A stretch of 64,000 nt of DNA, taken from contig JABDIY010000049.1 of the NCBI GenBank assembly GCA_013003535.1, forward strand, positions 124,001 through 188,000. The letters run 5' to 3'. Positions within the stretch are counted from its first letter, which is position 1. The number at the start of each line of letters is the position of its first letter. The DNA is from Acidimicrobiales bacterium (GTDB lineage Bacteria; Actinomycetota; Acidimicrobiia; Acidimicrobiales; SZUA-35). The position numbers and the translations under genes were made by a program. The notes under the pieces are model-generated. The model was not told the DNA's origin. It was given only the letters and a program-made list of their open reading frames with translations, and did no database searches. Positions 35,177 through 38,135 of this stretch are shown here, one piece after another.

Positions 35177-35182
35177 CGGTTG

Positions 35183-35794
35183 ATGAACCCCGGAGAGGAG
35201 ATGGTGGAGGTCGTCGACGAGGACGGCATTGTCATCGACGTCGTCAGCCGGGCGGAGATGAGAGCGGGCGTTCTGCGTCATCGTTCAACCTACGTCGCAG
35301 TTGTGCGACCCGATGATCGTCTGGTGGTTCATCGCAGGGCGGATTGGAAAGACATCAACCCGGGCTACTGGGACATCGCTTTCGGGGGTGTGGCCGGCGT
35401 GGGTGAGAGCTGGCCTATGGCGGCAGAGAGAGAACTAGCCGAAGAGGCCGGCGTGGTCGACGTGCCACTGACAGACCTCGGCCGCGGTGCATACGATGCC
35501 GAGGATGGCCACATCGTTGCGGCACTATTTCTTGCGCGCACCGACAAGCGCATCGTTCCCGAGGACGGCGAGGTGGTCGAGATCGGCGAGGTTCCACTCA
35601 GCGATCTCGACGCATGGGCCCGTTCTCACAACGTGTGCGGTGACAGCATGGCCCTCATAGCGCCATTCCTTCGGCAATTGGCGGCGACTGTCCCTGATGA
35701 GGACGCTCACCGCCAGGGAGACCGGCCTATTCGGCCCAGCAGCAACTCCACCGAATCGCCAAGTCCAGACTGCTCAAAGAACCTCAACCCTTAG
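35183..35794 (+). CDS. NUDIX hydrolase, IDI/YfcD-like
   Basis: The Nudix box is complete: G, then five residues, E, then seven residues, RELAEEAGV (around residues 73-95). The N-terminal EVVDEDGIVIDVVSRAEM and HRSTYVAVV resemble the isopentenyl-diphosphate isomerase-like and YfcD subgroup, which hydrolyse assorted nucleoside or isoprenoid diphosphates; the exact substrate is not predictable. The last 30 residues are low complexity. Its stop overlaps the 3' end of the convergent selenoprotein gene by 4 nt. Confidence 0.87.
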   Translation: MNPGEEMVEVVDEDGIVIDVVSRAEMRAGVLRHRSTYVAVVRPDDRLVVHRRADWKDINPGYWDIAFGGVAGVGESWPMAAERELAEEAGVVDVPLTDLGRGAYDAEDGHIVAALFLARTDKRIVPEDGEVVEIGEVPLSDLDAWARSHNVCGDSMALIAPFLRQLAATVPDEDAHRQGDRPIRPSSNSTESPSPDCSKNLNP

Positions 35795-36399
35795 AGGTTG
35801 GCTACAAGCTCCAGAACCTCGGTCTCGGGGTATCGACCCAGCCAGCCCTTGACCGGGTCCCCGTTTCGGTCCACCAAGATCGCTGTTGGCTGCGCTCTCA
35901 CCTGGTAGTAACTCCAAGACGTGAATGATTCATCCCAAATCATGGTGAAACCTGTTGTTCCGGTGTCCTGTTGGAAGACCTGGGCTTCCGGGAAGCTGTC
36001 CTGCGCGCCCATTCCCACCACTCGGACGATGTTGGCATTCTCACGAGCGAACCGCTCGACGCCAGGGGCTTCGCCCCGGCACGTGGGTCAATGAGGCGCC
36101 CAAAACCACAGAAGCACCGGGAGTTCACCGCCGGATAGCTCGGACCTGAGGTTGAGAGACTCACCGGTTGCGACGCTCAAGACATCGAGATCCGGGAACA
36201 GGTTGATGGTTTCGCCACCACGGCCCACAGAATCTGGTGGATTAGTGATCGCCGTTTCCGCGGGCTGCTCGACACCACAGGCGGTCAAGAGAAGCGACGC
36301 CACCAAAGTAACCGAGACGATCAAGCGACGGCGGGGACGGATTCGCACCGCGGGGAGATCGCCCGCACTCCTAGAAATTCGTCGGACTAGCGCTCTCAC
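35791..36399 (-). CDS. TlpA/thioredoxin-like lipoprotein, probable selenoprotein (UxxC, in-frame TGA at 36088-36090)
   Basis: Read through one in-frame TGA, this frame gives a 202-residue lipoprotein. It has a basic leader and hydrophobic segment ending in lipobox LTAC (near residue 41), then a TlpA-type thioredoxin domain. Around the TGA the protein reads WFWAPH-U-PTCRGEAP, placing Sec104 exactly at the first cysteine of CxxC and Cys107 at the second. Downstream hallmarks are intact: RVVGMGAQD, the cis-proline QPTAILVDRNG, and GWLGRYPETEVLEL. A stem-loop follows the TGA (36061-36080). It should act as a thiol-disulfide oxidoreductase outside the membrane. Sec use is inferred; a Cys-to-stop mutation or sequencing error is the alternative. 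GTG start; divergent from a molybdopterin oxidoreductase. Confidence 0.8.
36061..36080 (-). promoter_or_regulatory. Candidate bacterial SECIS stem-loop
   Basis: On the mRNA, GCCGGGGC pairs with GCCCCUGGC around a GAA loop: 5 bp, a bulged U on the 3' side, then 3 bp. The loop begins with G and starts 16 nt after the UGA, at the near edge of the distance known for bacterial SECIS elements. All of it is also coding sequence. Confidence 0.55.
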
Positions 36400-36530: not shown

Positions 36531-38135
36531 ATGACCACCACCCCTTTCCCAACCAGCACAAATCACCCGGTGCGCCACCCGCCCAGCTGGTGGGCGGGAG
36601 CGATCGCCGGCATGGCCGCTGGAGGGACGGCTCTTGCGGTAGGTGAACTCGCCGGTGCGCTGGCAGCGCCGAAACCCGGCCCGGTGATCGCAGTGAGCAA
36701 TCGGGTGATCGAGCATGCACCGGTCTGGTTTGTGAACTTCGGGAAACAGGTCTTTGGTCTCGCCGACAAGCCGGCACTTATCGCGGGAACACTGATCCTG
36801 TCGATCTTGTTCGCTGCTGGCCTTGGCGTCATCTCACTTCGTAGCCGGGTCGTCGGCGTGGCTGGCATCGCCGCCTTCGGTGTTTTGGGTCTGATCGCCA
36901 TGGGTGTCGATCCGCAAGGGGGATGGGTTTACGCGGCCGCCGTGTCGCTGGCTGCGGTGGTGGCTGGGGTCGTGTCGCTTCTCGCCCTACTTCGTCGGGT
37001 CCCGAGAAACGAGGTGCCCGATCTGGAGAATCCCATTTCTGCCCGCCCGGTTGAACGGCGAACATTTCTCGGCTGGGCGGCGGCTATGGCAGCCGCAATC
37101 GGGGCGGTAGCAGTGGGAGCAAATCAGCTACGAGGCCGCGCCGCCGTCGAGTCCGCTCGCGACGAGGTGGAACTCCCGACCGAGGTTGGCGAAGCGGAGA
37201 TCCAGGCACAGGTATCGGCCGCAGTCGCCAGTGAGGTTGCGAATACTCCCGGAATCGCCGATCTCATTACTCCCAACGATGAATTTTATCTCATCGACAC
37301 AGCCACGCTGGTGCCGCAGGTGGATCCATCGTCATGGGAGCTGACGATCAAGGGAATGGTGGACCGGGAGGTCACCTACACATACGACGACCTCCTCGCC
37401 CGCGCCTCCACAATCGCCCCGGTGACGCTCAGCTGCGTTTCGAATGAAGTGGGCGGTCAGCTGGTGGGAAATGCTGTCTGGCAGGGAGTACCGCTGAGCG
37501 AACTCCTCGATGAGGCCGGCGTCCAGACCGGAGCCACCCAGATTCGCAGTCAGTCGGTCGATGGTTGGGACTGCGGATTCCCTACCGATGCCGCCTTCGA
37601 TGGGAGAACGGCGTTGGTGGCGATTGCAATGAACGGCGAGCCTCTTCCCGTTGACCATGGCTTCCCCGCTCGCCTGGTGGTTTCAGGACTCTATGGGTAC
37701 GTCTCAGCCACGAAATGGCTCAAGGAGATCGAACTCACCACGTGGGAAGCATTCGATGGGTTCTGGATTCCTCGGGGTTGGTCCAAATCGGGGCCGATCA
37801 AGACCCAATCGCGAATTGACACTCCCCGGAATGGCGAAACGATTTCGTCCAGCGGTGCCGCCGTTCCGATCGCCGGGGTGGCATGGGCACCCAATCTGGG
37901 GATCGAGCGGGTCGAGGTTCAGATTGACGATGGCGACTGGTTCGAGGCCACACTCGGTGAATCCTTGGGGGACGACAGTTGGCTGCAGTGGTCCTTGGCT
38001 TGGACGCCCACACCGGGCCAACATCGGATCCGTGTTCGGGCCACCGATGGCACCGGCGAAACCCAAACAAGCGAAGTCGCCCGCCCTGCGCCAAACGGAG
38101 CCTCGGGCTGGCACACCATCACCGTAAAAGCCTGA
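36531..38135 (+). CDS. Membrane-anchored molybdopterin-dependent oxidoreductase (sulfite oxidase family)
   Basis: A 534-residue protein with four or five transmembrane helices in the first 165 residues, then a twin-arginine-like VERRTFLGWAAAMAAAIGA that may form a further Tat-type anchor, then the sulfite oxidase/YedY molybdopterin domain with the molybdenum-ligand cysteine in TLSCVSNEVGG. A C-terminal Mo-co dimerisation domain follows (IDTPRNGETISSSG onward). It probably reduces or oxidises small oxyanions or oxidised amino acids outside the membrane; the substrate is unknown. GGAGCAAG precedes the ATG. Divergent from the selenoprotein lipoprotein, suggesting a common extracytoplasmic redox theme. 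Confidence 0.9.
   Translation: MTTTPFPTSTNHPVRHPPSWWAGAIAGMAAGGTALAVGELAGALAAPKPGPVIAVSNRVIEHAPVWFVNFGKQVFGLADKPALIAGTLILSILFAAGLGVISLRSRVVGVAGIAAFGVLGLIAMGVDPQGGWVYAAAVSLAAVVAGVVSLLALLRRVPRNEVPDLENPISARPVERRTFLGWAAAMAAAIGAVAVGANQLRGRAAVESARDEVELPTEVGEAEIQAQVSAAVASEVANTPGIADLITPNDEFYLIDTATLVPQVDPSSWELTIKGMVDREVTYTYDDLLARASTIAPVTLSCVSNEVGGQLVGNAVWQGVPLSELLDEAGVQTGATQIRSQSVDGWDCGFPTDAAFDGRTALVAIAMNGEPLPVDHGFPARLVVSGLYGYVSATKWLKEIELTTWEAFDGFWIPRGWSKSGPIKTQSRIDTPRNGETISSSGAAVPIAGVAWAPNLGIERVEVQIDDGDWFEATLGESLGDDSWLQWSLAWTPTPGQHRIRVRATDGTGETQTSEVARPAPNGASGWHTITVKA

Follow-up and report, generated by a model that had tools for sequence, protein, structure and literature searches.

A thioredoxin-fold lipoprotein gene of an Acidimicrobiales bacterium with an in-frame TGA as a probable selenocysteine codon

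On the minus strand of the window (the whole 64,000-nucleotide stretch of DNA analysed here), two open pieces share one frame and are separated by a single TGA. The locus therefore raises the question of whether this codon marks a broken gene or is read as selenocysteine (Sec). The initial annotation favoured the second reading, describing a complete TlpA-type lipoprotein with U at the first position of a UPTC motif, and named as checks an alignment of homologues and a genome search for selA, selB, selC and selD. Our analysis points to the same answer. Judged from sequence comparison, the TGA almost certainly encodes Sec, making the gene a real selenoprotein gene rather than a broken one (probability about 0.97). 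The complete proposal, which combines Sec decoding with an exported, lipid-anchored Sec104/Cys107 oxidoreductase, is considered highly likely as well.

Reading frame and protein features

Re-reading of positions 36399-35791 bore out the shared frame: from GTG to TAA it holds one internal stop only, TGA 36090-36088, which on readthrough becomes U104 in the active-site context WFWAPH-U-PTC. The translated protein comprises, in order, a signal peptide, the lipobox LTAC41, a linker and a thioredoxin-like domain with the cis-Pro segment QPTAILV. Pfam gathering scores were passed across the TGA by AhpC-TSA (PF00578, 9e-8, 32.5 bits versus gathering 26), Redoxin (PF08534, 29.3 versus 26.6) and Thioredoxin, with UxxC inside the domain. 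The lipobox and these matches agree with the lipoprotein architecture claimed initially. A simple pattern found a lipobox-like motif in 85 of 102 homologues. The start is ambiguous, as the open frame extends 7 codons upstream of GTG 36399 and internal GTG or TTG codons are also possible. The features are collected in Table 1.

Table 1. Features at the locus (window coordinates)
Feature	Position	Strand	Remarks
TlpA/DsbF-like thioredoxin-fold lipoprotein, putative selenoprotein gene	35791..36399	-	202 residues, putative Sec at residue 104; GTG 36399 start uncertain
Putative Sec-UGA codon, first position of UPTC	36088..36090	-	TGA in >100 homologues, TGC/TGT in Cys homologues
Lipobox LTAC (Cys41), signal peptide end	36277..36288	-	read from sequence
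CAT (His) codon just 5' of UGA	36091..36093	-	codon counts in homologues
First hairpin after UGA	36061..36080	-	stable in Sec genes, possible SECIS part; register slides between homologues
Candidate SECIS apical hairpin CGAGCG-GUU-CGCUCG	36044..36058	-	34-35 nt between UGA and loop
SUOX-type molybdopterin oxidoreductase, divergent neighbour	36531..38135	+	neighbour in close relatives; partnership a lead only

Conservation of the TGA codon and selenocysteine machinery

A nonsense mutation of recent date, or a TGC called wrongly, would give the same picture of one in-frame stop in a draft genome. This explanation can be dismissed as extremely improbable, since TGA stands at the same codon, with both flanks intact, in more than 100 homologues from independent genomes and rare codons preserve an RNA hairpin behind it. 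These were distinct Acidimicrobiia homologues with TGA at exactly the U104 codon; the others had TGC or TGT, mostly in genomes without tRNA-Sec or selB. Base-calling error is untenable because TGA recurs in independent genomes. The homologues had no scattered stops elsewhere; together with the Sec system described below, this disposes of two of the three refuting outcomes that the initial annotation had named.

Homologues with a single TGA at the matching place were found in 81 of 298 genomes of the order, and 13 of 298 had stop-free matches only, among the matches listed down to ~1e-13; this split was sorted by hand from the match list, and the counts are not independent trials because the homologues are related. 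All VEQFAR-type homologues examined had TGA as this codon, which together with the 81 genomes excludes a chance origin. In a named genome collection, every readable locus among the best 80 had TGA at the site. Loci with informative titles came mostly from Acidimicrobiia, including the cultured Ilumatobacter nonamiensis, whose strain YM16-303 has two such genes (L100, L119). Elsewhere in the phylum, TGA is likewise found in a WFWAPW-U group, beside Cys forms, and the source genome itself contains three more TGA paralogues (L048, L049, L050). The tree was built from few columns and leaves many forks open. It requires 6 Sec/Cys changes, of which well-supported branches impose 4, and does not give their direction.

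Tandem pairs of Sec genes of this lipoprotein family were observed at L028, L030, L035-L038, L043, L046 and L137. Frequently the linker of one copy is long and rich in Pro/Thr or Ala/Glu, and the cis-Pro QP motif is missing from some copies.

The source genome is a 3.99 Mb draft in 221 contigs. All the components named for the genome search were present: one tRNA-Sec (67.8 bits, above the Rfam cut-off; ARAGORN SeC, anticodon TCA), selB above its cut-off and directly downstream of selA, and selD (374 bits). selA was identified by its sequence and its position beside selB, without a family model. The selD gene itself has one in-frame TGA. So does a formate dehydrogenase alpha homologue (context NRT-U-HAPS), where the TGA is followed by a hairpin with a loop read as GGUCU.

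UGA readthrough is known in bacteria, and the open downstream frame would also suit decoding of the TGA as another amino acid without Sec, through a code change (Trp or Gly) or plain readthrough. This reading is nevertheless very improbable. TGA is an ordinary stop here, terminating 21 of the 39 large ORFs of the window; homologues have their catalytic Cys at this residue; a SECIS-like hairpin accompanies the TGA forms and is absent from the Cys forms; and across genomes the TGA forms track tRNA-Sec and selB. tRNA-Sec was present in 74 of the 81 TGA-form genomes versus 2 of the 13 others (Fisher's test, p = 3e-8, uncorrected for relatedness). Matches of ~190-206 bits in the selB search were taken as EF-Tu; on this basis, of the 13 genomes without TGA forms, 12 had no selB above the cut-off and one had it.

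Seven TGA-form genomes had no clear tRNA-Sec (G071, G119, G223, G070, G267, G170, G178). Five of them have selB above the cut-off and one (G178) has a partial match of 221 bits; in G170 neither a clear tRNA-Sec nor a clear selB was found. Assembly gaps or a divergent tRNA-Sec probably account for the missing tRNA-Sec in these seven genomes.

Downstream hairpins and codon usage

Two hairpins follow the UGA. The second lies at positions 31-47 counted from the TGA and has the form (U)CGAGC-(A/G)GUUY-GCUCG(A). The loop core GUU (101/101) and two of the pairs did not vary among 101 distinct HU-type sequences. In a set of 65 sequences that are less than 90% alike, pairing held in 96.2% of cells, compared with 20-46% when the register was slid, and three pairs had changes on both sides. 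Both stem strands were altered in L023 (GCAC/GUGC), where the peptide VEQFAR becomes VAQFVQ, and one L030 copy has the stem GGGC/GCCC. When ten W-U sequences of other families were added, stems of the type UGCAC/GUGCA or CGCGC-like appeared at the same place, with 96.7% of cells paired.

Codon choice also preserves the stem. The rare codon GCT accounted for 82 of 87 Ala at codon +14, versus 11% elsewhere in these genes, and CGA for 60 of 72 Arg at +15, versus 12.5%. Compared with synonymous sequences, the second hairpin had a mean z of −2.9, whereas ten Cys homologues gave z ~0; these nulls are descriptive, being built on family codon usage and related sequences.

In the published model of bacterial SECIS elements, the hairpin lies 16-37 nt downstream and has G, then G/U, near the start of its apical loop (PMC13188914). 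The second hairpin fits this model, with the loop 34 nt past the UGA and G followed by U. Because compensatory changes and rare synonymous codons maintain it and the Cys homologues do not have it, it is very probably the SECIS element. At the level of sequence, the conserved hairpin adds independent evidence for the Sec reading. The gene combines three features of SelB-dependent selenoproteins: UGA where homologues have Cys, Sec machinery in the genome and a putative SECIS hairpin in range.

The first hairpin is nearer to the UGA, and its stability exceeds that of synonymous sequences (mean z −1.55, versus +0.24 in Cys homologues), so SelB might read it instead. We regard this as unlikely, since its register slides, and the copy in the window places a GAA loop 15 nt away from the UGA; the second hairpin, in contrast, has a fixed register, an invariant loop core, covariation and a fit to the published model. 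The first hairpin had been the initial idea for the SECIS (z only −1.25) and was dropped after alignment.

A pattern search of the source genome with the hairpin sequence alone gave 7 matches, and only the two with an in-phase TGA 33 nt upstream were selenoprotein genes; such a short sequence is therefore no detector by itself. The WFWAPW-U paralogues L049 and L050 of this genome, and L053, do not have the common hairpin. Reading by eye, they have CUGC-GGUC-GCAG ~26 nt past the UGA instead.

The His codon before the Sec-UGA was CAT in 81 of 88 homologues, while elsewhere in these genes CAC was used for 72 of 77. CAT in this place may affect termination or decoding.

Predicted fold, function and relation to known families

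AlphaFold2 (51 aligned sequences, Cys standing in for Sec) predicted the domain with pLDDT ~94-99 and placed the active-site pair where the first long helix begins. The top sequence and fold matches were M. tuberculosis DsbF and MPT53/DsbE, followed by ResA and, lower, CcmG and pneumococcal Etrx. The predicted thioredoxin fold, the cis-Pro loop and the export signal with lipobox place the protein in the TlpA/DsbF-like group. Scores against the NCBIfam ResA, DsbE and StoA equivalogs or subfamilies were ~27-30 bits, far short of the cut-offs of 123-359.

The Sec machinery, codon conservation, hairpin and predicted fold were computed here, and together they suggest the following course. Ribosomes would meet the UGA on the mRNA, and the hairpin ~34 nt downstream, with its (A/G)GUU loop and CGAGC/GCUCG stem, would recruit SelB with Sec-tRNA-Sec, so that Sec is inserted. 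The signal peptide would direct export, and lipidation of Cys41 would anchor the protein to the cytoplasmic membrane on its outer side. In this location the Sec104/Cys107 pair would act as a thiol-disulfide oxidoreductase, with Sec exposed and reacting and Cys107 resolving the bond. The most likely role is disulfide exchange in exported proteins, with recharging through a CcdA/DsbD-type membrane protein as the presumed partner.

The assignment as an extracytoplasmic thiol-disulfide oxidoreductase, drawn from fold and homology, builds on the fold matches, on the activity of the mycobacterial relatives and on the source genome, where a single CcdA/DsbD_TM-like gene was found and a search for VKOR as membrane oxidant gave no match. 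Mt-DsbE and Mt-DsbF fold hirudin oxidatively and, in the assay reported there, did not act as insulin reductases (PMC3853704). The only CcdA/DsbD_TM-like gene found follows directly downstream of a Cys-form TlpA-like lipoprotein gene (L166:904-2373).

The direction of the reaction is evenly balanced. The selenoprotein could be a CcdA-fed reductant of the ResA/Etrx kind and not an oxidative folding catalyst like DsbE and DsbF of M. tuberculosis; this concerns direction only. The presence of CcdA/DsbD_TM beside the missing VKOR match speaks for a reductant, as does the occurrence of ResA, CcmG and Etrx lipoproteins among the fold matches. However, the closest sequence and fold match is DsbF, which folds hirudin oxidatively in vitro (PMC3853704), and the neighbour of the CcdA-like gene is a Cys-form TlpA-like gene and not the Sec gene, which weakens the proposed partnership of CcdA with the selenoprotein.

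Metagenome surveys have described UxxC Trx-like and Prx-like selenoproteins (PMC1088965, PMC2398784), and reviews list them (PMC9312934, PMC13188914). The Trx-like 1 (COG0526), Prx-like 1 (PF00578) and Redoxin-family (PF08534) members of the marine surveys and later tables (PMC2398784, PMC13188914) share the thioredoxin fold, Sec first in UxxC, common Cys homologues and a SECIS downstream of the UGA. Unlike them, by description, the present branch consists of exported WFWAPH-U lipoproteins spread over Acidimicrobiia; a genome often has several paralogues, and the branch has a single, fixed putative SECIS hairpin. M. tuberculosis DsbF (3ios) and DsbE/MPT53 (1lu4) are likewise exported actinobacterial oxidoreductases and share the WFWxPxCPxC-EAP motif, but have Cys where the present protein would have Sec. 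ResA/StoA/CcmG and the Etrx lipoprotein thioredoxins share the extracytoplasmic TlpA-like fold and a membrane anchor, with lower similarity and a Cys active site. TlpA disulfide reductase selenoproteins (cd02966; PMC13188914) also combine a TlpA-type fold with Sec, in a UGC motif versus UxxC here. None of the selenoprotein-specific NCBIfam models matched.

The initial annotation had called this lipoprotein form unfamiliar. That stands for the exported, lineage-wide branch, of which no description turned up in the open literature that was searched; the kind is less new, UxxC Trx-like and Prx-like proteins having been catalogued (PMC2398784, PMC13188914). A search on selenoproteins of Acidimicrobiia or Ilumatobacter returned nothing on point, although absence from open-access literature is weak evidence.

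As a tentative extension, which we hold to be rather doubtful, Acidimicrobiia and related Actinomycetota might use selenium for some of their thiol-disulfide chemistry outside the cytoplasm. They would do so with an expanded family of often duplicated Sec lipoproteins, decoded through a SECIS of two hairpins that is particular to the lineage and has (A/G)GUU as its apical loop, with CAU as the favoured codon before the UGA. Standard gene calling would cut such genes at the UGA, so many exported actinobacterial selenoproteins may hide as truncated or broken genes. The family would also offer a candidate SECIS with unusually clear covariation over many sequences and, because relatives carry both forms, a natural setting in which to compare Sec with Cys within one enzyme. 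Tests are practical, as the cultured I. nonamiensis strain has two such genes.

No universal neighbourhood partner of the Sec gene was found. The SUOX-type gene lies beside it in most close relatives (cluster of 19 loci) but not in others, which makes a functional link no more than a lead. The Sec gene stands alone, with a convergent NUDIX gene (35180-35794) on its other side, overlapping it by 4 bases.
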